Source of the DNA: Parabacteroides acidifaciens
GTDB taxonomy: Bacteria > Bacteroidota > Bacteroidia > Bacteroidales > Tannerellaceae
Length of the DNA: 64,000 nucleotides
Direction of reading: 5' to 3'
Assembly (NCBI RefSeq): GCF_003363715.1
Contig: NZ_QREV01000004.1
Span: forward strand, 1-64,000
The translations under genes and the position numbers were made by a program. This document shows positions 13,837 to 46,559 of the stretch, piece after piece. The notes beneath the pieces are model-generated. The model saw only the letters and a program-made list of their open reading frames with translations, was not told where the DNA came from and did not search any database. Numbering within the stretch: the stretch's first letter is position 1; each line of letters begins with the position of its first letter.

Positions 13837-14344
13837 AGCCTTATTGTATAAAACGTGTTTTTTATCTCCAAAAGAGATCCGAAACCGAACAAATGTCGCC
13901 CCACTTTTCAGCTATCAAAAAGGGGCCTTTTCCTATGATCCGGCACCTTATCGCCGTGAAGAGGGACTTTACCCCTCTGATCCGGAACTTTATTGCTCTG
14001 AAGTCGGACTTCATATAGCACAAAGTCAACCATCAGAGCGATGAAGCGTTACTTCACGGCAATTTTCTGCGCACCTCACGGCAACAAGCCTCCAAAATTT
14101 TCTTTGGATATTTGGAACGCCGTCCGCCTTCGTTCGCAAATATTCGATTCTCCGGGAGTTAAGCTTTATCACATTGACGGTGTTTCCGGTTTCCGGCAAT
14201 CAAATTGCACGCTTTTCGGAATGGGCTCGGCACCTCATTTCAGCTATTGTCAGCCGAGCCGGTTAAAACAGTGAAAAGAGTCAATCCAAAATTGATCAGG
14301 ATTTCGGACGAAATAGAAAAATGGCTGAAATAGGGGTTATTGTA
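13837..14344 (+). repeat. 508-bp dispersed intergenic element, copy 1 of 3
   Basis: The element is bounded at both ends by TTATTGTA (13841-13848 and 14337-14344). The right-hand 227 bp, from ATTTGGAACGCC (14110) on, closely match the other two copies: blocks GATTCTCCGGGAGTTAAGC, TTTATCAC and a late TTTCGGACGAAATAGAAAAA. The offset from the left end to ATTTGG is 269 bp in all three copies although the centre has diverged. The centre here holds two related 42-bp units beginning GATCCGG. It lies between the convergent SusD and M64 peptidase genes. Short open frames in it are not conserved in copy 2, so I regard it as non-coding. Confidence 0.85.
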
Positions 14345-14365
14345 TTTTTTTAATTTGCAGAAGGT

Positions 14366-15652
14366 CTAAAATTCTTTATCCGTCAGGAAATCGATCATCC
14401 GTATGATTGCGCGGCTACATGCCGGGCAGAACGGGGCGTAATCGCGCATCATGCAGTGATCCATAGGACGGTAGATACCTTTGGAGATGTAGCCACCGCC
14501 TTCGAATACACCGGCTTTATCCTTGTGTGCTGCGTCGAGTGGGGTCGGAACAGGAGTATTGGCCGGCAACAGGTCTTTCCATTTGCTGTCGAAGTCGACC
14601 AATGTCGTGATGTTCGGTTCCCACGGTTCGTATTTCAGGTTATAAAAATCCTGGTAAGCCACTTCCGAGGAGAAATACTCGTCAGCTAATCCGGCGAAAC
14701 TATGTCCGAATTCGTGTGTAAAGACATCCGGTGTGCGGGCATTATCAGCCGTTCCGCAAGCATAGAAGTTATACATACCGCCACCGCCGTACATATCCGT
14801 ATTGATCAACAGGAAGACCGCATCGCAGGGTACGTTCCAAACGGCATCGCGGATCGGTTTCATATCCTGGGTCGTCAGGTAGCGGTCTACTCCGAACGTG
14901 TAATAGCCGGAGTTGAGAGCCGTGTTCTTGAAAATGCCTTTGCCGGAAATATCTGTGCCTGATTCTTCTGAAACCAGTTCGACAGCCCAGACATTGAAGT
15001 CATTGCGACGTGTTGTGAAAGGAGGTGTTGCGAATAATGCTTCTGTGAAGCGCTTGGCATCGGCTACGAATTTTTCCTGTTCGGCAGCCGTGTAGCCTTC
15101 CGCGATAAAGACGAGGTCTACTTTTTCCGATGAATCCCCGTTATTTTGTATCTGATAGACTTTGTTCTCTTTTAGTTTTCCCCTGTCAATAAAGATACTT
15201 TTCGGATCGACTTCCTGTTTCAGCAGCGGGTGGAACTGCATATCGGCTTTGTCCCGTGCCGTGATTTCTACATAAACGGGAGCTTTTGGATAAGGGATGG
15301 AAGCGCTGTTCGTCCAGGACTGTGTTTCCGTTTTAGCCTGTTCCGTCGAACGCCATTCTTCAAACAAGGTGTTGAAGCCACGTGAATAAATCAACTTATT
15401 GCTCGTTTTGTCATACACGTTAATATAGTAACCGCCATAATTGAACTTGTCGATCAGGTTCTTTACCGGACCGCCCCATGTCGGCTCTTCGCGTAGCTGC
15501 TGGATGGCGGCTGCCTGGAATTTGAGATTACCGCTTAGTGCAAAGTCTACCCGGAGACTTTTCTTTTCAAAATATTTATCGAAGTCATTCTGCGCAAATA
15601 CAGAAATGCTACAGAGAATGGCGATAAGCAAGAGTGAAATCTTTGTTTTCAT
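14366..15652 (-). CDS. Secreted M64-family (IgA peptidase-like) zinc metallopeptidase
   Basis: This 428-aa protein has a clear Sec signal (cleavage after SVFAQ, about residue 21). The zinc-binding motif HEFGHSFAGLADE lies at residues 313-325, matching the extended HExGHxxxGLxDE motif of M64 peptidases. The N-terminal 140 residues form the beta-rich domain usual in Bacteroidales members. M64 includes the IgA1 protease of Clostridium ramosum, but most Bacteroidales homologues have no proven substrate, so IgA cleavage should not be assumed. It is a single gene, transcribed toward the second SusC/D operon. A near-consensus -7 box lies just upstream. Confidence 0.85.
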   Translation of the reverse strand: MKTKISLLLIAILCSISVFAQNDFDKYFEKKSLRVDFALSGNLKFQAAAIQQLREEPTWGGPVKNLIDKFNYGGYYINVYDKTSNKLIYSRGFNTLFEEWRSTEQAKTETQSWTNSASIPYPKAPVYVEITARDKADMQFHPLLKQEVDPKSIFIDRGKLKENKVYQIQNNGDSSEKVDLVFIAEGYTAAEQEKFVADAKRFTEALFATPPFTTRRNDFNVWAVELVSEESGTDISGKGIFKNTALNSGYYTFGVDRYLTTQDMKPIRDAVWNVPCDAVFLLINTDMYGGGGMYNFYACGTADNARTPDVFTHEFGHSFAGLADEYFSSEVAYQDFYNLKYEPWEPNITTLVDFDSKWKDLLPANTPVPTPLDAAHKDKAGVFEGGGYISKGIYRPMDHCMMRDYAPFCPACSRAIIRMIDFLTDKEF

Positions 15653-15685
15653 ATTAGTATGCGTTATATGTGTAATTCATATTCG

Positions 15686-15715
15686 CAAATATAAGGTTTT
15701 TTGTAGAATTGGCAG
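15686..15715 (-). promoter_or_regulatory. Possible promoter of M64 peptidase gene
   Basis: On the minus strand TATATTTG (complement of 15686-15693) matches the -7 consensus TAnnTTTG. CTG sits exactly 19 nt upstream where TTG is expected. The placement is about 35-60 bp before the start codon. Confidence 0.45.
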
Positions 15716-15809
15716 TGACAGCCGACTGCTTTTCCCAAAAAGGTTTGGCGACCAAAACAGAATATACCAAATGAACGGCCAACTGTCAACTGCTTTTCTC
15801 TATTGTGAA

Positions 15810-16442
15810 TCAGTGTTTGCTCAGATATCCGGAAACACCTTCGTTCGTTGCCTTCATCGCGTCTTTGCCTTTCGACCAGTTTGCCGGACAGACTTCGCCG
15901 AACTCTTCGAAGTGCTGCAAGGCGTCTACCATACGGATCGCTTCGTCCACGTTACGTCCTAACGGCAGGTCGTTGATTACATAGTGACGGATTTTGCCCT
16001 CCTTATCGATCAGGAACAGACCCCGGTAAGCAACAGGGGCGCCTGTGGCAACCAGTTCGCCTTCTTCGTTAGTCAGATAGTCGGCTGCCAATACGCCGTA
16101 GTTTTCTGCAATTGTTTTGGAGAAGTCTGCAACGATCGGATATTTCACCCCATGAATACCGCCTTTGTTCTTATCCTGATTCAACCATGCAAAGTGAGAA
16201 AATTCGGAGTCGACGGAGCAGCCGACCACTGCAACATCGCGCTTCTCAAATTCACCCAGCTTTTCCTGGAAAGCGTGAAGCTCGGTCGGACAGACAAACG
16301 TAAAGTCCATCGGATAGAAGAACAGGACGACATATTTCTTCCCTAAGTATTGTTCCAGGGAAAAGTCTTCAACAATCTGATTACCGTTGATAACGGCGGG
16401 AGCATGGAACTCCGGCGCCTTTTTACCTATTAATGCTTTCAT
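15810..16442 (-). CDS. Typical 2-Cys peroxiredoxin (AhpC/TSA family)
   Basis: This 210-aa peroxiredoxin reduces hydrogen peroxide and organic peroxides. The peroxidatic Cys51 is in FVCPTELHAF and the resolving Cys185 is in EVCPANW, so it is a typical 2-Cys enzyme; a GGIHG segment is present near residue 94. I chose the ATG at 16442 (MKALIGKKAPEF), where family homology begins, over the longer open frame that starts 156 bp upstream and adds an unlikely basic extension. No AhpF lies beside it, so the reductant is probably another thioredoxin-like system. The gene is divergent from the histidine kinase at 16607 with 164 bp between the two starts. Confidence 0.93.
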   Translation of the reverse strand: MKALIGKKAPEFHAPAVINGNQIVEDFSLEQYLGKKYVVLFFYPMDFTFVCPTELHAFQEKLGEFEKRDVAVVGCSVDSEFSHFAWLNQDKNKGGIHGVKYPIVADFSKTIAENYGVLAADYLTNEEGELVATGAPVAYRGLFLIDKEGKIRHYVINDLPLGRNVDEAIRMVDALQHFEEFGEVCPANWSKGKDAMKATNEGVSGYLSKH

Positions 16443-16606
16443 ATTACTAATGTGTATTGTGTATTTAATATTGTCATAACAAAGTATATGCTTCCTTTGT
16501 TCCTTGGGACTTTTTCTTTTGGTAATGTTATTTAAGTCCAATATGTGTCCATTGTATTCAAACTTTGATTTACTTTGCATAAATCCTATACAAAACACAG
16601 AATATC

Positions 16607-18460
16607 ATGGATGAGACTTCAGCTAAACAAATACTTTTAACAGACTTCTTTACTTATTATCCGGCAGGGGGAGCCTTGTATGACAGTGAGGGAGCTTTGT
16701 TGGAAATAAATAAAATCATGTACGAGAAGTTTGCTATTACGGATAAGCATGATTTCGTGTTGAATAATCTTTTTGAAACGGATTATTTATCAGACTTGCA
16801 GAAGAATCATCTGAGGAGTGGAAGTGTGTTGGCGGGTAATCAGCCGCTTGGATATTCCATTATTCCGGGGTTTGACAGCGAGGGGAATACTATCGGTTAC
16901 ACCTTGTTGTTGACTGATACCGAATCTTACAATCCGGATCGGGATATGATGCGGTATGACAGCAAGATGAAGGAACTGAAAGATATTTCGGATAAGGTCG
17001 CCCAGTCTGTCCCCGATACGATCCTTTTGATTAATAATCAGTTGGTGGTAGAACGTATTATCACTTATGCTTCCGAAACTTGCATTACGCCGGAGGCCTT
17101 GAACCGTCGTATAGATGACCTTCCCGGATTTATCTATCCCGAAGCCATAAAAAGGAAGATCGCTTCTGTTGTTCAAAAGAGCCTGGACACTTCGGAAACG
17201 GCCAATATGGAATTTTCAATTCCCGGGCACGATGCACCGGTTGTCTATTTTAAGTTGAGGCTGGTCCCGATTCAGCACAAATATGTGGTGGCTTATATCC
17301 GGAATGTCTCGGATATGGTGGAGAAGGAAAAGGAAAACCGGCATTTGTCTCACCAACTATCCGAAAGCCGCAGCATGATGGAACTTGCTCTACGGAACAG
17401 CCATATTTCGACTTATTCTTTTAATTTCGACTTGTTCCGCGCCTGTGATAAGGAGAGTTGCAATCATTGCTTTCAGTTTTACGGTGCAAATAACGAATTG
17501 TTGGAACGAAACCGGTATATCTGCCGTGCCTTGTCTGTGTTGCGCCATCCGGAAGACCGGCAGGACTTCTTTCTTTTGTTCAATGAGATCCGCGATAAGA
17601 ACCTGGAGGAACATTCGGTTAACTTCCGTTTGAAAAACGATTATGATGATCAATACCGGAGTTATGAAGTTATCGGTAAAGCGTTGGAAAAGGATGCTGA
17701 AGGCAAAACGAATCTGATTGTCGGTTGCGTGATCGATAACCAGAAACATGTGGAATATGAAAATTCACTGATTAAAGCCAAAGAGAAAGCTGAAAACGCT
17801 GATCTGCTGAAATCGACATTTCTTGCAAATATGACACATGAGATCCGTACTCCTTTGAATGCGATTGTCGGCTTTTCCGATCTGTTGAGTCTGGAAGAAG
17901 ATCCTGAGCTTCGGGAGACTTATACGGGACTGATCAAGGCAAACAACGAATTGCTTCTAAACCTGATCAATGATGTCTTGGACATATCGAAAATCGAGTC
18001 CGATATGCTGACATTTACTTATACAGATGTTCATTTGCCTTCGATGATGCATGAAATACATCAGACGATGCAATTTCGTGTCCCGGAAAACGTCATGCTG
18101 ATATTGGACCCTTGTCCGGTAATAACTTTAAATGCAGATAAAAACAGGGTTATGCAAGTGCTGATCAATTTACTGACGAATGCAACCAAATACACGGAGA
18201 AAGGAAATATCCGCTTCGGTTATGGTATCCGGCGTAACTTTGTCCGCTTTTATGTTACCGATACAGGCCGGGGCATCCCGAAATCCGAATTGGGAAATAT
18301 CTTCGGCCGTTTTGTCCAGTTGAAAGGAAATAAACAGGGGATCGGTTTGGGCTTGGCCATCTGTAAAGGGCTGGTAAGTAAAATGGGAGGAACGATATCC
18401 GCTACTTCTGATGTGGGAAAAGGATCGACGTTTAGTTTTACGTTACCGTTAAATCCGTGA
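16607..18460 (+). CDS. Soluble PAS-domain sensor histidine kinase
   Basis: This 617-aa kinase has no transmembrane helix or signal peptide, so sensing is cytoplasmic. Two or three PAS-like regions (about 1-110, 130-235 and 260-380) precede HisKA, with phosphoacceptor His411 in FLANMTHEIRTPLNA, and an HATPase domain to the end (DTGRGIP and GIGLGLAICKGL boxes). There is no receiver domain and no response regulator next to it. A CDKESCNHC cluster at residues 280-288 may bind a metal or sense redox, which would fit its position opposite a peroxiredoxin gene; that is speculation. It is followed after 15 bp by the SGNH hydrolase. Confidence 0.88.
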   Translation: MDETSAKQILLTDFFTYYPAGGALYDSEGALLEINKIMYEKFAITDKHDFVLNNLFETDYLSDLQKNHLRSGSVLAGNQPLGYSIIPGFDSEGNTIGYTLLLTDTESYNPDRDMMRYDSKMKELKDISDKVAQSVPDTILLINNQLVVERIITYASETCITPEALNRRIDDLPGFIYPEAIKRKIASVVQKSLDTSETANMEFSIPGHDAPVVYFKLRLVPIQHKYVVAYIRNVSDMVEKEKENRHLSHQLSESRSMMELALRNSHISTYSFNFDLFRACDKESCNHCFQFYGANNELLERNRYICRALSVLRHPEDRQDFFLLFNEIRDKNLEEHSVNFRLKNDYDDQYRSYEVIGKALEKDAEGKTNLIVGCVIDNQKHVEYENSLIKAKEKAENADLLKSTFLANMTHEIRTPLNAIVGFSDLLSLEEDPELRETYTGLIKANNELLLNLINDVLDISKIESDMLTFTYTDVHLPSMMHEIHQTMQFRVPENVMLILDPCPVITLNADKNRVMQVLINLLTNATKYTEKGNIRFGYGIRRNFVRFYVTDTGRGIPKSELGNIFGRFVQLKGNKQGIGLGLAICKGLVSKMGGTISATSDVGKGSTFSFTLPLNP

Positions 18461-18475
18461 TAATCATTAAATGTC

Positions 18476-19252
18476 ATGAAAAGAATTCGAGTAATAGTCA
18501 GCTTGTTGTTATGTATAACGTTCTGTAGTTATGCGTTGGGAGAGGAAAAGAAAAATCTGAATATTGTCTTTATCGGGAACAGTATTACGCAAGGAGCCTT
18601 ATTGGAAGATCCCAGGCATGATGCGCCCCCTGTGAAAGCAGCCCTTTTTCTGCGTAAACAGCCGACGGGCGGAACTGTCCGTTATTCCAACCAAGGTGTG
18701 AGCGGAAGCACGACTCTCGATTTTCTGCCCCAAAACGAATCTCTTTTCCCGAAAGTTGTACAGGTAGCCGATCAGTTCAAGGATGAGACTTGGGCAACTT
18801 TGATTTTTTCCATTATGCTCGGAACGAACGACAGTGCCATTACCGGACCGAACGGTGCTCCCGTTTCTCCTTCCGATTATTACGGGAATATGAAGTCGAT
18901 TGTTGACAGGCTGTTAGCTCTGTATCCGGATTGCAAGATCGTATTGCATCGTCCGGTCTGGTACAGCCCGAATACTTACAACGGCGCTAAATATCTTGAA
19001 GAGGGATTGAATCGTCTGCAAAGCTATTATCCGCAGCTGCAAGCGTTGGTGCTCGATTATTCCAAACGTTTCCCCGGACAGGTCTTTATGGGTGATACGG
19101 AAGGCTTCGATTATTTCAAAACTCATTATGAAACTGAATTATTCCCCGAAGAAGGAAATGCCGGTACTTTTTACCTGCATCCCAATAAAAAAGGCGCAGC
19201 CGCCTTGGGGGAACTTTGGGGGAAAGCCATACAGAAAGTAATTGGAAATTGA
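18476..19252 (+). CDS. Secreted SGNH/GDSL hydrolase
   Basis: This 258-aa protein has a signal peptide (about residues 1-22). Conserved SGNH blocks are block I FIGNSITQG (the nucleophile Ser), block III GTNDSA and block V with the catalytic His in FYLHPNKKGA. Such enzymes in Bacteroidales deacetylate polysaccharides or act as sialate/xylan esterases; the substrate is not readable here. It lies 15 bp after the histidine kinase gene and probably shares its transcript, an unusual pairing. Confidence 0.85.
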   Translation: MKRIRVIVSLLLCITFCSYALGEEKKNLNIVFIGNSITQGALLEDPRHDAPPVKAALFLRKQPTGGTVRYSNQGVSGSTTLDFLPQNESLFPKVVQVADQFKDETWATLIFSIMLGTNDSAITGPNGAPVSPSDYYGNMKSIVDRLLALYPDCKIVLHRPVWYSPNTYNGAKYLEEGLNRLQSYYPQLQALVLDYSKRFPGQVFMGDTEGFDYFKTHYETELFPEEGNAGTFYLHPNKKGAAALGELWGKAIQKVIGN

Positions 19253-19326
19253 CAATGGACAATTGACAATTAAAAATGTGAGCGCGAAGCTAATTGTCCA
19301 TTGTCAATTATCCATTGTCAATTGGA
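19248..19326. repeat. ATTGACAATGGACAATT inverted repeat cluster between convergent genes
   Basis: ATTGACAATGGACAATTGAC on the left arm is mirrored by two overlapping complements (TAATTGTCCATTGTCAAT and ATCCATTGTCAATTGG) on the right, allowing a long stem. It sits between the SGNH hydrolase and the ferritin gene, which converge, so it can end transcription from both sides. This simple repeat type is common between Bacteroidetes genes, from general knowledge. Confidence 0.65.
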
Positions 19327-19333
19327 AAAAGAT

Positions 19334-19816
19334 TTATCTTTTTCCCAGTCTATGGTCAAGGATGCCGACATGGCATTCGCCATAATTCTTCAACTGTTCT
19401 ACGATTTCTTTGGCTGTGGATTCTTCTTCAACCTGTTCGCGAACGAACCAGAAAAGGAAGTCTCTTGAAGCGTGGTCTTTATCTTTTTCTGCGATATCGA
19501 CCATTTTGTCGATCAGTTCGGAAACGTAGCATTCGTGTTTGTAGACATGTTCGAATACTTCTGTGACGCTTCCCCATGCAGTCGGAACAACATTGATCTG
19601 GCCGATGGTGACGTTGCCGCCCCGGTCGATAGCATAATCGATCATTTTATGGGCATGTTCCAGTTCTTCTTCCGCTTGTTTTTTCATCCAGTGAGCGAAA
19701 CCGTTCAGTCCCAATTTCTTGAAATGTACGGACATGGAAAGATACAAGTTTGATGACCACATTTCTGCATTAACCTGTGCGTTAAATGCTTCAGATAATT
19801 TCTTGCTTAAAACCAT
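19334..19816 (-). CDS. ftnA: Ferritin (FtnA type)
   Basis: This 160-aa four-helix ferritin stores iron by oxidising Fe(II) at a di-iron centre. Ferroxidase-type residues are visible: NAEMWSSNLYLSMS (helix A), the EEELEHAHKM motif (helix B) and EEESTAKEIVEQL (helix D). The length and the QVNAEMWSS start match Bacteroides ferritins. The minus-strand TATCTTTG (complement of 19872-19879) is a -7-like box about 60 bp upstream, but a matching -33 is not clear. It stands alone, convergent with the SGNH hydrolase. Confidence 0.95.
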   Translation of the reverse strand: MVLSKKLSEAFNAQVNAEMWSSNLYLSMSVHFKKLGLNGFAHWMKKQAEEELEHAHKMIDYAIDRGGNVTIGQINVVPTAWGSVTEVFEHVYKHECYVSELIDKMVDIAEKDKDHASRDFLFWFVREQVEEESTAKEIVEQLKNYGECHVGILDHRLGKR

Positions 19817-19968
19817 AATTCTGTTTCCTTTCTTTCAGTTAGATTTATAATACAATACAATTTTATACAGGCAAAGATATAGATAAAAAAATAATGGTCT
19901 GCTTTAACCGGATATTATTTTTCCTATAAAACAAACCATTATAAGCTTTAGTTTATACGGGCGGACGA

Positions 19969-20397
19969 TTATTTGATTTCAATAATCTTTTCAGCCTTCT
20001 TAATGTCTTCCTCACTCTTTTTCGGGATGATGATGTTCAACACACCATTCTCTACCTTTGCTTCGATTTTATTTTTCTCGGCATTGTCAGGAAGAACCAT
20101 TGTCTGTTGGAACTTGCTATAAGAGAATTCACGTCTCAGATAGCGTCCGTCTTTCTTGTCTTCGTTCTTTTCTTCTTTTTTCTCCATCGATACGACCAAA
20201 TTGTCGTTTTCGTCGATACGGATGTTGAAATCATCTTTTGTCATGCCCGGAGCAGCAACTTCTACTCGATAGTCCTTTTCCGATTCAATCACATTGATGG
20301 CTGGAGCTGTAGAGTTTGCTTTAATCATCCAGTCGTTGTCAAACAAATCATTGAATACATACGGTAACCAATTTTGACTTCTTCTCATCGGTGTCAT
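19969..20397 (-). CDS. Small heat-shock protein, Hsp20/alpha-crystallin family
   Basis: This 142-aa ATP-independent holdase has the alpha-crystallin domain at about 37-130 (VEVAAPGMTKDDFNIRID, LRREFSYSKFQQTMVLPDN, VENGVLNIIIPK) with a C-terminal EKIIEIK tail. I start it at the ATG at 20397. A TTG 15 bp upstream is in frame, but it overlaps a real Shine-Dalgarno (GGAGG, complement of 20406-20410), which marks the ATG as the true start and is unusual for this phylum. Single gene; no HrcA-type inverted repeat seen. Confidence 0.94.
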   Translation of the reverse strand: MTPMRRSQNWLPYVFNDLFDNDWMIKANSTAPAINVIESEKDYRVEVAAPGMTKDDFNIRIDENDNLVVSMEKKEEKNEDKKDGRYLRREFSYSKFQQTMVLPDNAEKNKIEAKVENGVLNIIIPKKSEEDIKKAEKIIEIK

Positions 20398-20639
20398 AAT
20401 ACAGTCCTCCAATTATTTAGTTAAACATTTATTTTATTTCTGCTTTCGTCTCGTTTCCGACCCGGAAGCATTATACTTACTTCAAACAATATGCCAAAGC
20501 AAAAGGATGAAAATCTGACAGTTAAAGAATGTTTTAGTATGAGAAAGATTGACAGAAAATGAACCATTTTGGCAGATAGATAGAGGTGGAAAAGTAATAA
20601 CTCTTATCTTTATCCCCTGATTCTTATATTATCAAGAGT

Positions 20640-22133: not shown

Positions 22134-22138
22134 CAAGC

Positions 22139-23371: not shown

Positions 23372-23378
23372 CAAAAAA

Positions 23379-23886
23379 GGGGGTTATTGTAAAAAACGTA
23401 TTTTTCAGGCTCGAAAGACAGTTGAAAGCAAACAAATGTTAACTCGCTTTTCAGACGTCAAAAAGTAGCTTTTTCCCTTTTTTCGGGAGTTTTTTGCCAT
23501 TGCGACCGTCCTCTTTGCCATTACGACCGTGCTAATCTTCGCGAGCTGCCGAGTATATCACCCATTAGGACGGTCATCGTGGCGATTACGACCGTCCTCT
23601 TTTGAAAAACGACCGTTTTCATGGCAAAAAAGCCCCTAAATTTCCTTTGAATATTTGAGACGCCGTCCGTTTTATTTTGCTACAGGCGATTCTCCAGGAG
23701 TTAAGCTTTATCACTTTGACGGCATTTTCATCTTTCGATAATCAAATTGCACGCTTTTTAGAATTGTCCTGGCACCTCATTTCTTCTGTTGTCAGCCATA
23801 AAGACGAAAACCGCAAAAAGAGTCAATCCAAAATCGATCAAAATTTCGGACGAAATAGAAAAATGGTCAAAAAGGGGGTTATTGTA
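23379..23886 (+). repeat. 508-bp dispersed intergenic element, copy 2 of 3
   Basis: Both ends carry GGGGTTATTGTA (5 G before TTATTGTA at 23384 and at 23879). The 269-bp offset to the ATTTG block at 23653 is identical to the other copies. The centre has GACCGT at 23504, 23525, 23590 and 23611, i.e. spacings of 21, 65 (about 3 x 21.7) and 21 bp, in the opposite orientation to the ACGGTC array of copy 3. A TGA stop falls in the frame that stays open in copies 1 and 3, which argues against protein coding. The right end overlaps the stop codon of the ATPase gene. Confidence 0.87.
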
Positions 23887-25168
23887 ATTTTGTTTCGCAT
23901 TGCAACAACCAATCATATACAGGTCTGACAGCGATGGCATAGCCATTTTCTTCCATATCCTCATATTGGTGGTCGGTAAGCAACAGTAGATTTTTGCAAC
24001 CGGTTTTTTTGGCTGCAAGGAGTAAACCGGAAATTTCACGCTTTCGGGTCTTGGCATTTGAAATGTCGTAAGAAACCTGGATGCAAAGGACAGTCTCATT
24101 TTCTTGGCATACTACAAAATCACATTCTCCGGAACGATCATTGTAATAGTAAATATCCAAACCTTTGTTCCTGCACCTGCGTAACAGTTCAATATAGGTA
24201 ATGGTTTCCAGGCGCCATCCCAGGTTTTTTCCGACAAAAGCATCTGCCCGTTTGTTCATCAATGCAACATCAATCGGATAGACTTTTTCCCCCACAATAC
24301 GTTGCTTGCTCTTATGCGAGTATTTACGAAGCCCCACTAAAAGGTAAGCTTGGCGGAGATAGTCGACGTAATTCTTGGAAGTATGTTCTGATTTGAAACC
24401 AAACAGTTCTTTCAAGGTATTATCTACCACAATGACAGGAGACACATTTAATAAATGTTGTGCCATTTGCTCAAAAGCTGCTTTGTGGGAAATCTTGAAG
24501 CGTTGTTCTATATCTCGTTTTAAGATATTATCCACAAGCGTATCGATATATTCACGGTCACCTGTAATATTTTGCAATTCAGGAAATCCTCCTTGTTGCA
24601 TATATTCATCGAATGCTGCCCGGCGGAGTGCGATTGCCTGTGTAGTCTGCTTCTTTACATCCACCTGTTTATAGTCACAATATTCGGCGAAAGAAAATGG
24701 AAAAAGTGGGATGGAATGATGACGTCCGGTCAGATGGGTGGCTAATTCTCCGCTTAGCAGTTTGGCGTTGGATCCTGTAATGATAATATGCATATTCCGG
24801 CGTAAAAGCCTGTTGACAAACAAATACCATTCCGGGATATTTTGAATTTCATCTATGAAAAGATAATTAAAGTCACCGTGTATTTTGTATAAGACCTCCA
24901 GCACATCATTCAGGTCTTCTCCCTTTAAGTTGACAAGACGCTCATCATCAAAATTCACATAGGCATATTTGACCCCGGCTCGATGAAGGATATTGTAACA
25001 CAAGGTTGACTTGCCACTTCGTCGTACTCCGATGACAACTTGCGCCTGCGTGCTTTCCAAATCTACCAGATCTTCCTCTTTTCTTCGGCAGAAACGAATG
25101 GACTGTTTCATTTCCAATTCTTCCGACTGGTCGGAAAGGATGGTTTCAAGAATACGTTTATCTATCAT
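23879..25168 (-). CDS. AAA ATPase with DUF4143 C-terminal domain
   Basis: This 429-aa protein belongs to the AAA_14/DUF4143 family. Walker A is GVRRSGKST (47-55) and Walker B is LFIDEIQNIPEW (103-114). The C-terminal half holds the DUF4143 nuclease-like fold, with ECDFVV resembling a PD-(D/E)xK strand. Members are common solitary genes in gut Bacteroidales, and no function is proven. The stop codon TAA is read from the TTATTGTA end of repeat copy 2, so the last residues may have been altered when the repeat arrived. No partner gene is adjacent. Confidence 0.85.
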   Translation of the reverse strand: MIDKRILETILSDQSEELEMKQSIRFCRRKEEDLVDLESTQAQVVIGVRRSGKSTLCYNILHRAGVKYAYVNFDDERLVNLKGEDLNDVLEVLYKIHGDFNYLFIDEIQNIPEWYLFVNRLLRRNMHIIITGSNAKLLSGELATHLTGRHHSIPLFPFSFAEYCDYKQVDVKKQTTQAIALRRAAFDEYMQQGGFPELQNITGDREYIDTLVDNILKRDIEQRFKISHKAAFEQMAQHLLNVSPVIVVDNTLKELFGFKSEHTSKNYVDYLRQAYLLVGLRKYSHKSKQRIVGEKVYPIDVALMNKRADAFVGKNLGWRLETITYIELLRRCRNKGLDIYYYNDRSGECDFVVCQENETVLCIQVSYDISNAKTRKREISGLLLAAKKTGCKNLLLLTDHQYEDMEENGYAIAVRPVYDWLLQCETKLQ

Positions 25169-26309: not shown

Positions 26310-26409
26310 ATTTTCTGCAAAGTAAAAATATATACCTATTACTTGTATCCCCTTTTTAGGGAATTTGGTTGTATTTAATGATTAATAGGTGGTGATAGTC
26401 CATTTATTA

Positions 26410-27803: not shown

Positions 27804-27874
27804 CCTTCCGCAGTCTTCCTTATTCTTATTATAAACAGTTCTTTCCCCTATTCATATGACTAATATGTCAGAAG

Positions 27875-27983
27875 TATCCCGTTCCCGCGCTTGACGCGGG
27901 ATCGCACGAGAGTAAACCTCATCAATTAGTTATTTATATGGTCAGTTTTAATGCGATCCCGCGTCAAGCGCGGGAACGGGATA
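27875..27983. repeat. 32-bp perfect inverted repeat, REP-like
   Basis: The left arm (27875-27906) and right arm (27952-27983) are exact reverse complements, with a 45-bp loop. Each arm contains its own smaller hairpin, CCCGCG-CTTGA-CGCGGG. The GC-rich arms stand out in an AT-rich region. I recall similar CCCGCG..CGCGGG palindromes as dispersed elements in other gut genomes. It follows the sigma-54 activator gene and may end its transcript, although no T tract follows. Confidence 0.8.
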
Positions 27984-28236
27984 TCTATGAAATATCTCGG
28001 TAAAATTGCCTGAAAACGCAAAAGCTGCTTTTTTGCCCTGATTTCACCTTTTTACAGAAGAGTGGTAATTGAAAAGTCCTACCCATCAAAACCCTTTCTA
28101 CATCAGGGTTCCAACAGATAGGACATCACAAACTGGGAAAGGGGGGCTTTCCCTAAAATCCACAAAAATAAAACGTTAAAAATGGTGGGATGGGGAGTTT
28201 CATGCGTTGAAAAACAACGGATGAAATGTTAATGTT

Positions 28237-35550: not shown

Positions 35551-35587
35551 GTTGAATATCGAGTATTGAAAATTGAAAAGTAATACG

Positions 35588-37630: not shown

Positions 37631-37746
37631 GTATAAATATCTCTTGACACTGCGCGCCGCCTGGCGGATGTTTCTGCGTGATCCGGAAAGGCTGCCGGGC
37701 GGGAGCGGGTGTTTCGCAATTAAGAACGTAAAGAAAATCAAATCAT

Positions 37747-38340: not shown

Positions 38341-38349
38341 GAATAAAAT

Positions 38350-39105: not shown

Positions 39106-39121
39106 ACAGTAATTCAGGCAA

Positions 39122-40243
39122 ATGAACAGAGAAGAGAGCGTACAACACTTTTTGGATTTGCTGAAAAAGTCCCGTCGCGGTAACTTCAAAATCTACATCG
39201 GCATGATTGCCGGTGTGGGCAAGTCGTACAGGATGTTGTCGGAGGCACACGAGTTGCTTCGCAGCGGGATAGATGTGCAGGTCGGCTACATCGAGACGCA
39301 TGGCCGGGCCGAGACAGAGGCGTTGGTTAAGGGGCTTCCCCTTATCCCGCGCCGTAAGTCGTTTTACAAAGGCAAGGAGGTCGAAGAGATGGATCTGGAC
39401 GCTATCCTGAACATCCGCCCCGAAGTGGTGATCGTCGATGAACTGGCCCACACCAACGTGGAGGGCAGCAAGAACGAAAAACGCTGGCAGGACGTGATGG
39501 ACATTCTGGAGGCGGGGATCAGCGTGATTACCGCCGTCAACATCCAGCACCTCGAAGGACTGAACGAAGAAGTGCAGGATATCGCCGGCATCGAGGTGAA
39601 GGAACGCATCCCCGACAGTGTGCTGGAGCAGGCGGACGAGGTGGTGAACATCGATCTTACCGCCGACGAGTTGGTGGCACGCCTGAAAGCCGGTAAGATT
39701 TATAAGCCGGAGAAGGTGCAGACGGCGCTGAACAATTTCTTTAAGTCCGAAAACATCCTGCAGCTCCGCGAACTGGCTTTGAAGGAGGTGGCTTTGAGGG
39801 TGGAAAAGAAGGTTGAAAACTCTGTCCCTGTCAATACGGGCGTCCGTCATGAAAGATTCCTCGCCTGCATCAGCAGCCACGAGAAGGCGCCTCGGAAGGT
39901 GATCCGTAAGGCTGCACGCTTGGCTACGCGGTATAATTCGAAGTTTTTTGTCCTGTATGTCCAGACTCCGCGTGAAAGTATAGACAGGATACCATTGGCT
40001 AACCAGCGGTATCTATCGAACCATTTCAAACTGGCTACCGAGCTGGGCGGTGAAGTGATCCAGATCCAATCGGAGAACATCCCGGAAAGTATCGTGCAAG
40101 TGTGCAGGGAGAAACAGATTACAACGGTGTGCGTGGGAAAACCTTCGTTTGGCCTTCGTTCTGTACTGGTGTCGATCTTTCAGTACAGGACCTTGTTAAA
40201 TAGTTTGTCGCAGTTGAATATTGACCTGATAATAATAGCATAG
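39122..40243 (+). CDS. kdpD: KdpD sensor domain only (no kinase)
   Basis: This 373-aa protein carries only the N-terminal KdpD domain (about 15-225: Walker A GMIAGVGKS at 27-35, VDELAHTN, ITAVNIQHLEGLN) and a universal-stress-protein domain (about 245-373). The membrane, HisKA and HATPase parts of the E. coli KdpD are absent. The kinase function is supplied by the separate histidine kinase gene 3 bp downstream. A split like this is familiar to me from Bacteroidales kdp loci. The domain may regulate that kinase by binding it, which is inferred. Confidence 0.93.
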   Translation: MNREESVQHFLDLLKKSRRGNFKIYIGMIAGVGKSYRMLSEAHELLRSGIDVQVGYIETHGRAETEALVKGLPLIPRRKSFYKGKEVEEMDLDAILNIRPEVVIVDELAHTNVEGSKNEKRWQDVMDILEAGISVITAVNIQHLEGLNEEVQDIAGIEVKERIPDSVLEQADEVVNIDLTADELVARLKAGKIYKPEKVQTALNNFFKSENILQLRELALKEVALRVEKKVENSVPVNTGVRHERFLACISSHEKAPRKVIRKAARLATRYNSKFFVLYVQTPRESIDRIPLANQRYLSNHFKLATELGGEVIQIQSENIPESIVQVCREKQITTVCVGKPSFGLRSVLVSIFQYRTLLNSLSQLNIDLIIIA

Positions 40244-40246
40244 TGT

Positions 40247-41977
40247 ATGGATAAGCTCTTTAGTCTGAAAATAAAAACGAAACTGACCTCCGGTATCGGT
40301 TTGTTGTTTACGTTGATTGTCCTGCTTGGCGGTGTGGCGGTCAAGAACATTACGGATATGTCTGCCGACACGCAGAACATCCTGGCGGATAATTATAATT
40401 CGCTTCTCTATTCCCGCCGGATGCTGGATGCCCTCGAACGGATTGAGACGGACCCGACAGCACGTGCGGAGTTCGAAAGGAACCTGGAACTGCAAAAGAA
40501 GAATATCACCGAGGTCGACGAAAACGTGGCGACGGCGCATCTAATCACGCAGTATGAGGCAATGCATCGTAACCAGAACGACACGACTATCCGGCGTGTC
40601 CGGACAGCCCTCAATGACATCATGACCCTTAATATGGCGACGATCTACAGGAAAAGCCAGGTTGCCGGGCATACGGCGGACCAGGCATTACTCTGGATAT
40701 GTATCATTGCGATGGCTTGTATCCTGATCGCTTTTGCATTCCTGATCCGCCTGCCCCGTTCCATCACGACGCCGATCCGCAAACTGACCGACGGCATAAT
40801 GGAGATCGCAAACCATAATTACGAAAAGAGGCTTGACTTAGGCGATAATCAGGAGTTCGCCGGAGTTGCCGCCTCCTTCAACCGGATGGCTGAACGGCTG
40901 ACGGAATACCGGAAGAGTACGTTAGCTGATATCATCCAAGCCAAAAAATACATCGAAGCGATTGTCAACAGCATCACCGAACCGATCATAGGGCTCGACC
41001 GCGACCGTTCCATCCTCTTCGCGAATGACGAAGCACTCACCATCCTGAATTTAAAACGGGAAAACGTGATGGGAAAGTCCGCAGCCGAGCTGGCGTTGAA
41101 AAATGACTTGCTCCGCCGTTTGGTTCGCGAACTGATCCAGCCCGACGAGAAGAAGGAGCCTCTGAAGATCTATGCCGACAATAAAGAAAGCTATTTCCAG
41201 GCAAAATACATCCCGATCCATGTGACGGACAGTGACGGACGCGAAACCGAGTATGCCGGCGATGTCATCCTCCTGAAGAATATCACCGAGTTCAAAGAGT
41301 TGGACTCTGCGAAAACAACCTTTATCTCCACCATCTCCCACGAGCTGAAAACTCCTATCTCGGCCATCTTAATGAGCCTGAAACTTCTTGAAGACAAACG
41401 GGTGGGAGACATGAACGACGAACAGAAGGCGCTTGCCGAAAGCATGAAGGAAAGCAGTGACCGCCTACTCGAAATCACCGGCGAACTCCTCAAGATGACG
41501 CAGGTGGAAACGGGCAAACTGCAACTGAATCCGAAGATCACGAAGCCGATTGAACTGATCGATTATGCTATCAAGGCGAACCGGGTACAGGCGGAGCGTT
41601 TCAATTGCCATATCGAGGTGGAATATCCGGAAAAGATTTCCAAACTCTTTGTCGATAGCGAGAAGATCGCCTGGGTGTTGACAAATCTCCTTTCCAACGC
41701 TATCCATTACACGCCGGAGAACGGCCGTATCATTATCGGTGCACGCCAGGCAGACAAGACGGTGGAAATATTCGTCCGGGACTTCGGCAAAGGCATCGAT
41801 CCCCGTTACCATCAAAGTATCTTCGACCGTTACTTCCGTGTCCCCGGCACAAAAGTACAAGGGAGCGGCCTCGGCCTCGCCATCAGCAAAGACTTCATCG
41901 AAGCGCACGGCGGCACGATCCGCGTGGAGAGCGAGGTGGGCAAGGGAAGTACGTTTATCATTACCTTTAATGTATAA
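40247..41977 (+). CDS. HAMP/PAS sensor histidine kinase paired with KdpD
   Basis: This 576-aa membrane kinase has transmembrane helices at about 13-33 and 147-168 flanking a periplasmic domain of about 110 residues, then HAMP (about 169-222), PAS (about 230-345), HisKA with His365 in ISTISHELKTPIS, and HATPase (NLLSNAIHYTPENG, GSGLGLAISKDF). Its gene starts 3 bp after the sensor-only KdpD, so they are translationally linked. It probably phosphorylates a sigma-54-type regulator, since no KdpE gene is in the window; the regulator at 26463 is the nearest candidate. Confidence 0.9.
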   Translation: MDKLFSLKIKTKLTSGIGLLFTLIVLLGGVAVKNITDMSADTQNILADNYNSLLYSRRMLDALERIETDPTARAEFERNLELQKKNITEVDENVATAHLITQYEAMHRNQNDTTIRRVRTALNDIMTLNMATIYRKSQVAGHTADQALLWICIIAMACILIAFAFLIRLPRSITTPIRKLTDGIMEIANHNYEKRLDLGDNQEFAGVAASFNRMAERLTEYRKSTLADIIQAKKYIEAIVNSITEPIIGLDRDRSILFANDEALTILNLKRENVMGKSAAELALKNDLLRRLVRELIQPDEKKEPLKIYADNKESYFQAKYIPIHVTDSDGRETEYAGDVILLKNITEFKELDSAKTTFISTISHELKTPISAILMSLKLLEDKRVGDMNDEQKALAESMKESSDRLLEITGELLKMTQVETGKLQLNPKITKPIELIDYAIKANRVQAERFNCHIEVEYPEKISKLFVDSEKIAWVLTNLLSNAIHYTPENGRIIIGARQADKTVEIFVRDFGKGIDPRYHQSIFDRYFRVPGTKVQGSGLGLAISKDFIEAHGGTIRVESEVGKGSTFIITFNV

Positions 41978-42034
41978 TATCGTTTAGAAGTAACAAAAAT
42001 ACTCTGATAGCCGGTCGGGAAGATCTCGGATCAG

Positions 42035-43348
42035 TTAGAACAATTGTATCATCAGCAGCCCCAACGCCACCGACACCCCGGTTGCGATCAGTCCCGGCAT
42101 CATGAACGAATGGTTGAGGATGTATTTGCCGATGTGGGTTGTTCCGGTACGGTCGAAATTGATGGCGGCTACGACTGTCGGGTAGTTCGGGATGAAGAAG
42201 TAACCGTTTACAGCCGGGAAAAGCGCGATAAGCATATACGGGGAGATGCCGAGGGCGATTCCTAACGGCAGTAATGCACGGATAGTCGCAGCCTGGCTGA
42301 ACAGCAGGATGGACATCACGAACAGGGCCAGACCGAACAGCCAGGGCATTTCCGTCACGATATGTTCGATCGAACCTTTCAGTTCGGCCATATTCCCGCC
42401 GATGAACGTGTCGCCCATCCAGGCGATACCGAAGATGGCAACTACCGCTTGCATACCGGCGGAGAAGACAGAACCTTGTACGGCCTTTATCCCGTCCGTC
42501 CGGGTGATGAGCAGGATCAGGGCGGCGGCCGAAAGCATCAATATCTCGATGATATGCGCCATCTGCATCTGCCGGGTTGCCCCGTCGGCCAGCGCGAACA
42601 CCGGACGCAATGAATCCATCGAACCGAAGAGGACGATCCCGATGGTCGCCGTAATGAAGATTACCACTGACAGGAGGGCGGCACGATGGTTCTCGACGCC
42701 TTTTGACACATATTTGTCATTCGTAAACTCTCCGTTGGCGACGCGGCGCAGGTATTCCGGATCGTCCGTCAGTTCCTTTCCGACGCGGAGGGAATAGAAT
42801 GCACCAGCCAGAACACCAACCAGTGTACAGGGAACGGAAATCATCAGAATGTTCATCAATGAAATATTATATCCCGCTAACATACTGAGCAGAGCCACCG
42901 TTGCCGCCGATATCGGACTGGCGGTAATGGCCTGTTGGGAAGCGATAACGGCAATCCCTAACGGGCGTTCGGGGCGAATCTTTGTCTCTGTTGCGACTTC
43001 TGCGATCACGGGAAGGACGGAATAGGCCACGTGCCCCGTTCCGGCAATGAAAGTAAAGACGTATGTAACTAACGGGCTCAATATCGTGATCTTGGAAGGA
43101 TTCCTGCGTAACAACTTTTCCGCCCACTTCACCATCAGGTCCAGGCCGCCGGCTGCCTGCATACAACTGGCTGCCGCGATGACCGCTACGATCATCAGCA
43201 TTACGTCGATGGGTGGGGAAGTCGGCTCCAGTCCGAATACGAAAGTAAGGACTGCTAATCCCAGACCGCCCAATACACCTAACCCGATGCCTCCGAGGCG
43301 GGCTCCTATTATAATTGCAATTAAAACGAATAGTAATTGTAACAACAT
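42035..43348 (-). CDS. dcuB: Anaerobic C4-dicarboxylate transporter, Dcu family
   Basis: This 437-aa polytopic membrane protein of the DcuA/DcuB family exchanges fumarate, malate or aspartate for succinate. Family segments such as GGLGLAVLTFVFGLEPTSPP, FIAGTGHVAYSVLPVIAEV, RPERPLGIAVIASQQAITASP and FPAVNGYFFIPNYPTVVAA are all present and the length is normal. In Bacteroidales it supports succinate efflux during fumarate respiration. It is divergent from the beta-galactosidase gene with an 85-bp gap; the minus-strand TAAATTTG (complement of 43383-43390) may be its -7 box. DcuA versus DcuB cannot be settled by eye. Confidence 0.92.
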   Translation of the reverse strand: MLLQLLFVLIAIIIGARLGGIGLGVLGGLGLAVLTFVFGLEPTSPPIDVMLMIVAVIAAASCMQAAGGLDLMVKWAEKLLRRNPSKITILSPLVTYVFTFIAGTGHVAYSVLPVIAEVATETKIRPERPLGIAVIASQQAITASPISAATVALLSMLAGYNISLMNILMISVPCTLVGVLAGAFYSLRVGKELTDDPEYLRRVANGEFTNDKYVSKGVENHRAALLSVVIFITATIGIVLFGSMDSLRPVFALADGATRQMQMAHIIEILMLSAAALILLITRTDGIKAVQGSVFSAGMQAVVAIFGIAWMGDTFIGGNMAELKGSIEHIVTEMPWLFGLALFVMSILLFSQAATIRALLPLGIALGISPYMLIALFPAVNGYFFIPNYPTVVAAINFDRTGTTHIGKYILNHSFMMPGLIATGVSVALGLLMIQLF

Positions 43349-43369
43349 GGCTGTAAAATGCAGATTTAG

Positions 43370-43400
43370 TTTGTAAAGGTCGCAAATTTAGTTATTTTTG
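43370..43400 (+). promoter_or_regulatory. Consensus promoter of the beta-galactosidase gene
   Basis: TTTG (43370-43373), a 19-nt spacer and TATTTTTG (43393-43400) match the Bacteroidetes housekeeping promoter exactly. The start codon at 43434 is 33 bp downstream of the -7 box. It overlaps the possible -7 box of the divergent Dcu gene. Confidence 0.75.
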
Positions 43401-43433
43401 TCCTGCTAAGTACTACAAAAACACTAAATACAA

Positions 43434-45938
43434 ATGAAAAGAATCTATTTCGCAGCTTTAGTAGGGTTGTTCGGGTGTGTGTCGGCAATGACGGCGCAGG
43501 TCCGTAATGAGTTCTTGTTGGAGAAAAACTGGAAGTTCACCCGCGAGGATAACAATGAGTTTATAAAGCCTGCTTTCGACGACAGCAAGTGGCAGTCTGT
43601 GACCGTCCCGCACGACTGGGCCATCTACGGCCCTTTCAGTTCCCAGAACGATAAACAGGAGGTGGCGATTGCGCAAGACGGACAGAAGGAAGCGATGGAG
43701 CATGCCGGACGTACCGGCGGTCTTCCCTTCGTCGGTGTGGGCTGGTACCGCACCGAGTTCGAGGTTCCGCAGTTCCAGGCAGGCAAGCGGGCGACGATCC
43801 TGTTCGACGGGGCGATGAGCCATGCCAATGTTTACATCAACGGGCAGAAGGTCGGCTACTGGCCGTATGGTTATAACTCGTTTCATTTCGATATCACGAA
43901 ATATCTGAAAGCCGGACAGAAAAATACGTTAGCCGTCCGTTTGGAGAACCTGCCGGAGTCTTCCCGCTGGTATCCCGGTGCCGGACTCTATCGTAATGTC
44001 CATGTGATCGTGACGGACGACGCCTATATCCCGGTTTGGGGAACTTACGTGACGACTCCCTCGGTAAACGAGAAGTTTGCCAAAGTGAACATCCGTACCA
44101 AAGTGGTGCTTCCCGAAGGGGCCGATCCTGCTAAATACAGCGTGGAGACCAGCGTCTGGAATCCGAACAAGCAGAAGCTGACGGCTGTCCGCACCTCTCT
44201 TGAACAGATGAAATACAACAACGATCAGGCGGAGCAGGAATTTATCATCCAGAGCCCGTCTTTATGGTCGCCGGATATGCCGGCTTTGTATTCGGCTGAA
44301 ACCCGCCTCTATGAAGGTGACCAGCTGAAAGACATCTATACCACACCGTTCGGCATCCGTTCGATCGAGATTATTCCTGACAAAGGTTTCTTCCTGAATG
44401 GTGTGAAGACTGTCTTTAAGGGCGTCTGCAACCATCATGACTTAGGTCCGTTGGGCGCAGCTGTTAACGATGCAGCCATCCGCCGCCAGGTGCGTATCCT
44501 GAAAGACATGGGCTGCAACGCGATCCGTACATCCCATAATATGCCCGCTCCCGAACTGATCCGGGCCTGCGACGAAATGGGGATGATGATTATGGCGGAG
44601 AGCTTTGACGAATGGAACGTGGCGAAATGCAAGAACGGCTACAACCTGCTGTTCGATGAATGGGTGGAGAAAGATCTGGTAAACCTGGTTCATCACTACC
44701 GGAATAACCCGAGCGTGGTGATGTGGTGCATCGGCAATGAAGTGCCTAATCAGTGGAACGAAGGAGATTGCAAGATTGCCAAAAGATTGCAGGATATCTG
44801 CCACCGCGAAGACCCGACTCGTCCGGTAACGCAAGGGATGGATGCCCCGGATGCCGTGGTGAACAATAACTTTGCCGCCGTCATGGATGTGGCCGGCTTC
44901 AACTACCGCCCGTTCAGATATAAGGTCAACTACAAGAAGTTGCCGCAGCGGATCATCTTAGGCAGCGAAACGGCCTCGACAGTCAGTTCCCGCGGCGTGT
45001 ATAAATTCCCGGTGGAACGTAAGGCAATGGCGAAATACGACGATCACCAGAGTTCCGGTTACGACGTGGAACACTGCGGCTGGTCCAACCTGCCGGAAGA
45101 CGACTTTATCCAGCATGAAGACCTGCCGTATTGCATCGGCGAGTTTGTGTGGACCGGTTTCGACTATCTGGGTGAACCGACTCCGTACTATACGGATTGG
45201 CCAAGCCATAGCTCCCTGTTCGGCATCATCGACCTGGCCGGTATTCCAAAGGATCGTTACTACCTCTACCGCAGCCATTGGAACAAGGTGGAACGTACGC
45301 TCCACATCCTGCCTCACTGGACATGGCCCGGACGTGAAGGAGAAGTGACACCCGTCTTCGTCTATACCAATTATCCTACCGCCGAACTCTTTATCAATGG
45401 CAAGAGCCAGGGCAAACGCACGAAAGACCTGAGCGTGGAACTGGACAGCAGCTATACGGAAGCCGCCCAGAAGAGTTTCGAACGCCAGAAGCGCTACCGC
45501 CTGATGTGGATGGATACCAAATATGAACCGGGAACGCTGAAAGTGGTTGCTTATGACAAGGACGGCAATGCCGTTGCCGAAGAAGAGGTGCACACGGCCG
45601 GCAAGCCTCACCATATCGAACTGACAGCCGACCGGAACCGCCTGACGGCCGATGGCAAGGATCTTTCCTTCATCAATGTCCGTGTTGTCGACAAGAACGG
45701 CAACCTTTGTCCGGATGCCACCCATAAGGTGAAGTTCAATGTGCGCGGTGCCGGCACCTATCGTGCGGCTGCCAATGGCGATGCGGCTTCCCTCGAATCT
45801 TTCCAGGCCCCGCAAATGTCTCTGTTCAAAGGACAGCTGACCGCTATCGTGCAGACCGAAGAGCAGCCGGGCGTCATCATGTTCGAGGCTTCGGCTCCGG
45901 GTGTGAAGAGTGCGAAGATAGAACTGATCAGCGAATAA
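43434..45938 (+). CDS. Glycoside hydrolase family 2, beta-galactosidase-like
   Basis: This 834-aa secreted enzyme has a signal peptide (about 1-22), an N-terminal sugar-binding jelly roll (about 30-180), an immunoglobulin-like domain and the GH2 TIM barrel (about 300-600). The acid/base Glu436 is in CIGNEVPNQW, and the nucleophile is probably Glu512 in LGSETAST. The C-terminal 230 residues (VTPVFVYTNYPTAELFINGKS and then an invasin-like Ig domain, GRGTYRAAANG-type) fit the DUF4982-containing GH2 enzymes. The likely substrate is a beta-galactoside or a related host or plant glycan. It stands alone, not in a Sus locus. Confidence 0.92.
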   Translation: MKRIYFAALVGLFGCVSAMTAQVRNEFLLEKNWKFTREDNNEFIKPAFDDSKWQSVTVPHDWAIYGPFSSQNDKQEVAIAQDGQKEAMEHAGRTGGLPFVGVGWYRTEFEVPQFQAGKRATILFDGAMSHANVYINGQKVGYWPYGYNSFHFDITKYLKAGQKNTLAVRLENLPESSRWYPGAGLYRNVHVIVTDDAYIPVWGTYVTTPSVNEKFAKVNIRTKVVLPEGADPAKYSVETSVWNPNKQKLTAVRTSLEQMKYNNDQAEQEFIIQSPSLWSPDMPALYSAETRLYEGDQLKDIYTTPFGIRSIEIIPDKGFFLNGVKTVFKGVCNHHDLGPLGAAVNDAAIRRQVRILKDMGCNAIRTSHNMPAPELIRACDEMGMMIMAESFDEWNVAKCKNGYNLLFDEWVEKDLVNLVHHYRNNPSVVMWCIGNEVPNQWNEGDCKIAKRLQDICHREDPTRPVTQGMDAPDAVVNNNFAAVMDVAGFNYRPFRYKVNYKKLPQRIILGSETASTVSSRGVYKFPVERKAMAKYDDHQSSGYDVEHCGWSNLPEDDFIQHEDLPYCIGEFVWTGFDYLGEPTPYYTDWPSHSSLFGIIDLAGIPKDRYYLYRSHWNKVERTLHILPHWTWPGREGEVTPVFVYTNYPTAELFINGKSQGKRTKDLSVELDSSYTEAAQKSFERQKRYRLMWMDTKYEPGTLKVVAYDKDGNAVAEEEVHTAGKPHHIELTADRNRLTADGKDLSFINVRVVDKNGNLCPDATHKVKFNVRGAGTYRAAANGDAASLESFQAPQMSLFKGQLTAIVQTEEQPGVIMFEASAPGVKSAKIELISE

Positions 45939-45973
45939 TAAATGAAGATTTATCGGTTCAGTTATGATTCACG

Positions 45974-46011
45974 TTTCATGCCCATGGAAATCGGATTGCA
46001 TGGGCATGAAA
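45974..46011. repeat. 13-bp perfect hairpin after the GH2 gene
   Basis: TTTCATGCCCATG (45974-45986) and CATGGGCATGAAA (45999-46011) are exact complements with a 12-nt loop. A third GATGGGCATGG copy follows at 46021. There is no T tract, so it is not a classical terminator. The core matches the hairpin inside the MFS gene. Confidence 0.7.
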
Positions 46012-46049
46012 TTCCGAATGGATGGGCATGGATACTTTTTCAATATCCA

Positions 46050-46559
46050 GGGGCTTATTGTATAAAACGCATTTTTTAGGCCCTAAAAGAGCCCCTAATT
46101 TAAACAAATGTTAATCCTCTTTTTAACCGCCAAAAAGGGGAAAAAGCCCTTTTCCAGGGAGTCTATTGCCGGGAAGTCAACCTTTATTTCATTTTCCCGG
46201 AACTTTATCGCCCTGAAGACGGTCGCCGTACCCTATGAAGACGGTCGCCATTCCAATGAACACGGTCATTATCGCGATGAAGACGGTCGTCATGGCGACA
46301 AGGCCCTGAAACTTCCTTTGCATATTTGGAACGCCCTCCGTCTTCGTTTTGCTACAGGCGATTCTCCGGGAGTTAAGCTTTATCACTTTGCCGGTGTTTC
46401 CGGTTTCCGGCTATCAAATTGTACCCTTTCCTGAATGGGCTGCGCACCTCATCTCCTCTGTTGTCAGGCGAACAGGTTAAAACCATGAAAAAAGTCACTT
46501 CAAAATCGATCAACTTTTCGGACGAAATAGAAAAACATCCCGGGAAGGGGGTTATTGTC
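46050..46559 (+). repeat. 510-bp dispersed intergenic element, copy 3 of 3
   Basis: It begins GGGGCTTATTGTA (46050-46062) and ends GGGGGTTATTGTC (to 46559). TTATTG occurrences are 497 bp apart (496 and 495 in copies 1 and 2), and the ATTTGG block is again at offset 269. The centre holds ACGGTC at 46219, 46241, 46262 and 46283 (spacings 22, 21, 21 bp), with TGAAGA between. The right part repeats the GATTCTCCGGGAGTTAAGC block. It lies between the convergent GH2 and PepSY-like genes. Confidence 0.87.

Follow-up and report, generated by a model that had tools for sequence, protein, structure and literature searches.

The window analyzed here is the whole stretch of DNA under study, the first 64 kb of contig C79 in a 5.1-Mb genome (144 contigs) of the genus Parabacteroides. 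A first-pass annotation had reported a repeat present three times in it, and end-to-end alignment located the copies exactly where they had been placed, at 13837-14344, 23379-23886, and 46050-46559, with the spacing described and a well-conserved right half. The left TTATTGTA starts at 13841, 23384, and 46055 in copies 1, 2, and 3, and the right GGGGTTATTGT(A/C) occupies 14333-14344, 23875-23886, and 46548-46559. An ATTTGG block had been described 269 bp from the left motif; that distance holds in all three copies, but the hexamer does not, copy 2 reading ATTTGA. The features are as follows.

13837..14344, plus strand: copy 1, 508 bp, core type 2 (alignment; type from a 16-nt marker)
13841..13848, plus strand: left terminal motif TTATTGTA of copy 1 (sequence)
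13937..14096, approximate limits, plus strand: variable hairpin core of copy 1 (core typing, folding)
14067..14082, minus strand: orientation marker GCCGTGAGGTGCGCAG of copy 1 (core inverted, F orientation)
14142..14171, plus strand: most conserved block of copy 1, ATTCGATTCTCCGGGAGTTAAGCTTTATCA (block pattern search)
14333..14344, plus strand: right terminal motif GGGGTTATTGTA of copy 1 (motif search)
23379..23886, plus strand: copy 2, 508 bp, type-1-kind core with a long hairpin (type from sequence against consensus)
23479..23638, approximate limits, plus strand: variable hairpin core of copy 2 (core typing, folding)
23695..23714, plus strand: part of the conserved block of copy 2 (core 20-mer match)
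23875..23886, plus strand: right terminal motif of copy 2 (motif search)
46050..46559, plus strand: copy 3, 510 bp, type-3-kind core (type from sequence against consensus)
46207..46298, plus strand: core of copy 3, about four units of the 21-nt ATCGCGATGAAGACGGTCGTC with 72-76% matches (Tandem Repeats Finder)
46367..46386, plus strand: part of the conserved block of copy 3 (core 20-mer match)
46548..46559, plus strand: right terminal motif GGGGTTATTGTC of copy 3 (motif search)

All three copies are flanked by convergent genes, and the stop codon of a minus-strand ORF (23879-25168) falls within copy 2. Upstream of copy 1, 139-6855 and 8892-13672 are neighboring TonB receptor (SusC-like) loci whose DNA is approximately 67-78% alike over long stretches; a SusD-like ORF (11957-13672) stops short of the copy. 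Beyond copy 3, eleven ORFs of 414-435 aa follow one another on one strand between 47665 and 62739, interrupted by one ORF of 221 aa. Of three tested, one matched MacB_PCD as well as FtsX; the other two matched FtsX, in one case above the cut-off and in the other just under it. Judged by these sequence matches, the region is a long FtsX/MacB-like permease gene array. Between copies 2 and 3, what looks like a small, separate element with inverted ends is formed by a 38-bp inverted repeat (28237-28274/28401-28438) that is 95% complementary, with ends AAATGACTAA/TTAGTCATTT and 126 bp separating its arms.

Within the window, the terminal 12-mer with at most two mismatches has 8 matches against 4.25 expected, and 7 of 100 shuffles reach 8. 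This count proves nothing by itself; the genome-wide counts do. A core 20-mer from the right half (up to three mismatches) has 126 matches in the genome and none when reversed, the left-end pattern 119 (control 0), and the right-end pattern 132 (control 1). Left, block, and right markers are thus similarly numerous: 119, 126 and 128 by two block patterns, and 132. Should every one of the 126 matches be a whole copy, about 1.25% of this gut commensal's genome would consist of the element. In nine contigs of the draft, a core match falls no more than 100 bases from the first base, so the copies probably break the assembly.

Both ends were recognized (left motif with up to three mismatches, right with up to two) in 83 of 98 distinct copies; the other 15, several of them cut by contig ends, were excluded from the length count. 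Lengths are tightly grouped, at 506-510 bp in 74 of the 83: 508 bp in 32 copies, 507 in 27, 509 in 12, 510 in two, 506 in one, and 514 in one, with eight outliers. The left end is GGGCTTATTGTA and the right end GGGGTTATTGT(A/C), with TTATTGTA directly repeated at both. Mean pairwise identity is 74% over the 75 copies of 500-515 bp, and the 30-nt stretch ATTCGATTCTCCGGGAGTTAAGCTTTATCA is strongly conserved and kept across species. The right flank is A/T-rich (A/T in 98% at position 1, T in 88% at position 4), and the final base of the left flank is G in 80%. Terminal inverted repeats are absent at the 508-bp limits, the ends there being the direct TTATTGTA repeats, and target-site duplication was not detected in the 44 extension-free copies (largest z 2.6, with many boundary shifts tried).

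The copies lie in both orientations and in mixed gene contexts. By crude ORF calls, 14 of the 83 sit between convergent genes, 27 between divergent, 27 between codirectional, and 15 could not be assigned, so an element specific to convergent genes describes the three window copies only and was rejected. Coding capacity was likewise rejected, since no consistent ORF recurs: ORFs of at least 90 codons occur inside 21 of the 83 copies at varying positions, and the 108-aa ORF of copy 3 has no Pfam family match up to E = 1. The repeat is short, intergenic, high in copy number, and non-coding, as MITEs are.

The 508-bp limits are not the sole limits of the element. Of the 83 copies, 39 have a shared extension, on one side (left or right) or on both. 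In a 449-kb test, biased in that its sequence came mostly from around copies, the extension adjoins an element end at every one of 23 left places and at 27 of 30 right ones; of the three right exceptions, one adjoins an element whose end is mutated. Extended copies carry a short 6-bp TGGCAA/TTGCCA pair, as read from the sequence. At seven loci, two copies form a head-to-head inverted pair around a common spacer, with left ends 222-273 bases apart; these pairs differ in sequence past the shared right extension. At L090 and L107, both in the window's own genome, a whole 508-bp copy lies within a larger repeat with 26-bp inverted ends, CTCACCCGATAATCATTGGGGATAAA. Among the ends listed (100 of 132 right and 100 of 119 left), 65 of 100 right ends have a same-strand left partner, 60 of them at 457-464 bases within an overall range of 365-494; 35 of 100 right and 35 of 100 left ends are partnerless in this set, some lying near contig ends. 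Separately, a 44-bp inverted repeat with CCCGCGCTTGACGCGGGATCGCA occupies 27863-27995 of the window; a 16-mer from it is also found at five other loci, and in L083 it falls within the spacer of an inverted pair.

The part of the element that varies is its middle. Positions ~100-260 hold a core of near-constant length that falls, in the 75 copies, into four discrete types with 42, 21, 11, and 1 members. The window copies carry types 2, 1, and 3, which explains why their left half had seemed diverged. Each type consensus folds as a hairpin. In 16 copies examined with RNA parameters, the core folds far better than shuffles on both strands (mean z -7.3 and -6.8; range -12.4 to -0.3). The first-pass annotation had taken constant size with a diverged core as pointing to constraint such as that on an RNA, and a structured non-coding RNA or cis-regulatory element, selected for length and shape and multiplied genome-wide, would account for this folding, for the nearly constant length within a species, and for the conservation of the 30-nt block between species. 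The folding is, however, confined to the core: the left and right parts of the same 16 copies fold no better than shuffles (mean z -0.4 to +0.7), and the copy 2 core region, treated as single-stranded DNA, reaches a z of only -2.6. The covariance analysis that had been proposed gave a mild excess of compensated stem changes in type 1 (16 versus 8.7 ± 2.5), which favors the RNA reading, and none in type 2 (0 versus 1.5) or type 3 (3 versus 2.5); G-U changes in the stems do not exceed shuffles, and RNAalifold on 75 copies shows no covariation gain. So few compensated changes within types give little sign of present structural selection. The possibility that the copies are degenerate members of a known Rfam family found no support, with no match at gathering score in the whole window. 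Together with the mixed gene context, these results make a conserved RNA or regulatory element improbable.

A different origin of the diverged, equal-length cores is visible in the sequences themselves. The type-2 core aligns with the reverse complement of the type-4 core at a score of 84, versus 32 in the forward direction and a null maximum of 13. We searched the 16-nt marker GCCGTGAGGTGCGCAG in 116 copies, allowing up to four mismatches. It is on the plus strand in the left half of 27 (20 from G002, a metagenome-assembled genome [MAG] of Parabacteroides sp. RGIG9024; 3 from G013; 3 from G021, Parabacteroides massiliensis; and 1 from the window's own genome), at positions 95-118 in 26 and at 138 in one G002 copy. 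In another 27 it is on the minus strand on the right, at positions 221-233 (21 own type-2 copies, 4 from G021, 1 from G013, and 1 from G014). The marker is absent from 62: all type-1 and type-3 copies, eight untyped own copies, and one from G014. On a tree built from the flanks only, with 51 marker copies (24 of the 27 R and all 27 F), orientation needs a single change. One core class is an in-place inversion of another, which alters the sequence and keeps the length. We restrict this statement to marker-bearing copies because type 1 leans toward R (30 of 42 beyond threshold, none opposite) and type 3 is undecided. Short inverted repeats beside the core were rejected as inversion sites, since type 1 alone stands clearly above its shuffled mean (9.7 versus 6.9). 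Equal length around a diverged middle can thus arise by inversion, and as a general caution it does not imply a conserved RNA.

The types are also scattered on the flank-only tree (11 changes for 74 copies of three types, with weakly supported nodes), which suggests that cassettes are exchanged between copies; on this sequence pattern, they were probably swapped by gene conversion.

The element is not confined to one strain, as the first-pass annotation had allowed it might be. The block pattern is found in 8 of 38 Parabacteroides genomes, that is, in 7 of 37 besides the window's own: 128 matches in G000 (own), 22 in G002, 7 in G021, 5 in G013, 3 in G014, 3 in G046, 1 in G018, and 1 in G006. 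Of 40 relatives compared with copy 1, six have matches, and every one of these belongs to the genus (G002, G013, G014, G021, G015, and G016); those in G015 and G016, neither of which has a block match, are weak (E 9e-5 and 3e-5). Among distant block matches, similarity outside the block is significant for G046 L177 and G014 L162, marginal for G013 L173 (26.0, null maximum 24.9), and not significant for L176, L178, L179, and L180; on sequence similarity, the last may be block-only relics or chance. None of 50,697 phage or 72,556 plasmid records matches copy 1, and an exact search of IMG/VR with the block 27-mer gave none.

Copies group by species and have species-typical lengths. In G002, 18 of 20 fetched copies measure 485-489 bp, as against ~508 bp in the window's species; this difference, together with a core made of alternative cassettes, one of them inverted, speaks against the argument from constant size to RNA. 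On the flank-only tree, all 20 G002 copies fall in a single clade (support 1.0), and 82 of 83 own copies group together with one G021 copy (support 0.72); the full tree is similar. We infer from the copy number, sharp ends, species grouping, and context that the element has moved. Species grouping and species-typical lengths would also be produced if ancestral intergenic copies, now moving little or not at all, were inherited vertically and homogenized through gene conversion inside each species, and the scatter of core types on the flank-only tree fits that account too. The very unequal block counts between relatives (128, 22, 7, 5, and 3) do not.

Both accounts are affected by some intergenic regions in which two or three species have a copy or a block match, the orientation being the same in some pairs and opposite in others; a gene family present at several places (L044, L165, L170, and L199 mutually) was excluded from this count. 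Several shared loci keep one orientation, as vertical inheritance with homogenization would have it: L044/L164/L174, L161/L171, L163/L167/L172, L054/L177, and L085/L178. Against it, orientation is opposite in some cross-lineage pairs: L175/L189; L111/L175, in which the distance to the shared flank is unequal (195 and 1070); and L068/L176, in which L176 has no significant similarity beyond the block. The shared site L175/L189 carries oppositely oriented copies in two species, one 23 and the other 13 bases away from the homologous flank common to both; independent insertion would produce this arrangement. A comparison of strains had been suggested for defining insertion ends; at three loci compared across five genomes, a clean empty site was not found, the other species having remnants or unalignable intergenic sequence, and this counts against the mobile-element reading. 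We regard homogenization of vertically inherited copies as unlikely, if somewhat less so than the RNA account.

A further possibility is a single-strand element like IS200/IS605, in which the left TTATTGTA would serve as target and the right TTATTGTA as cleavage site for a Y1 transposase acting in trans. Similar direct motifs at both ends, with neither inverted ends nor duplication, agree with this. Of the eight genomes with block matches, G000, G021, and G018 have Y1_Tnp (PF01797); it was not found in the other five, namely G013, G014, G046, G006, and G002, the last of which had an expansion, although G002 is a MAG of 90% completeness, in which absence is no proof. The host genome's sole Y1 gene, at L130:3270-4260 (contig C61; 149 aa), is flanked by its own GCCCTGTAAGGGC palindromes and looks, from its sequence, like part of a REP/RAYT-type system. 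Finally, the left and right end regions of 16 copies, each folded as a whole, fold no better than shuffles. The non-detection in five genomes and the different palindromes around the sole gene led us to reject a Y1 transposase as the likely mover, and an IS200/IS605-like mechanism seems to us very unlikely.

Having weighed these accounts, we consider the repeat to be, probably, a family of non-coding mobile elements in Parabacteroides that are non-autonomous, are mobilized in trans, and have expanded separately in two species. A mobile element with fixed ends was among the options first listed for it, and copy number, ends, and length make this the best reading. We lowered our confidence in it slightly, and raised that in homogenization by as little, because unpaired ends allow for an autonomous relative and because shared loci keep orientation. 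A source copy would be mobilized in trans by a putative enzyme acting on, or next to, the direct TTATTGTA repeats at the two ends. The element would then be joined to A/T-rich intergenic DNA (right flank WWTTT) without leaving a target duplication that can be detected. Copies of species-typical length would result from expansions that took place separately in the window's species and in Parabacteroides sp. RGIG9024, by transposition rather than concerted evolution. Inside the element, the hairpin core of ~150 bp exists as several alternative cassettes, one of which was inverted in place, once among marker-carrying copies. Constant length would follow from amplification from few sources and, for one core class, from in-place inversion. 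Our guess is that the mobilizer is a recombinase leaving no target duplication (tyrosine- or DEDD-type) and not a DDE transposase or an IS200/605-type HUH enzyme.

The ends fit none of the tested transposon types, and the mobilizer could reveal an unusual recombination system. Classical bacterial MITEs are short, non-autonomous, intergenic, and high in copy number, and target duplication is the usual hallmark of transposition; unlike them, the Parabacteroides element lacks terminal inverted repeats at its 508-bp limits and any detected target duplication. REP/BIME sequences, which go with RAYT, are also intergenic repeats containing palindromes, but the 508-bp unit is far longer than a REP, and the RAYT-like gene present in the genome is flanked by a different palindrome. 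Derivatives of IS200/IS605 have similar direct, non-inverted sequences at their two ends and make no duplication; the present element differs in that its end regions do not fold and that a search for the Y1 enzyme family came up empty in five genomes carrying the element or its block. One might tentatively propose a new element class, with neither inverted ends nor duplication, moved by a recombinase on direct TTATTGTA ends, and with an invertible and exchangeable hairpin cassette, though we hold this to be doubtful. The initial impression that no named element has this structure agrees with the literature searched (open-licence papers only), in which no Parabacteroides element of this kind is named. 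To our knowledge, the nearest described element is BrickBuilt of Porphyromonas gingivalis, from which it differs at its ends, in its core, and in its length. In copy 3, the one copy given to Tandem Repeats Finder, the program reported a 21-nt unit and not a BrickBuilt-style 23-nt tandem core. As far as the account in PMC4596501 goes, BrickBuilt is a MITE of 84-991 nt with small inverted-repeat ends and a 23-nt tandem core variable in copy number. Both elements are intergenic, non-coding, multicopy repeats of Bacteroidales with a conserved leader and tail around a repeat-rich middle; unlike BrickBuilt as described there (PMC4596501), the Parabacteroides element has direct ends, a near-constant length, and hairpin cassettes.
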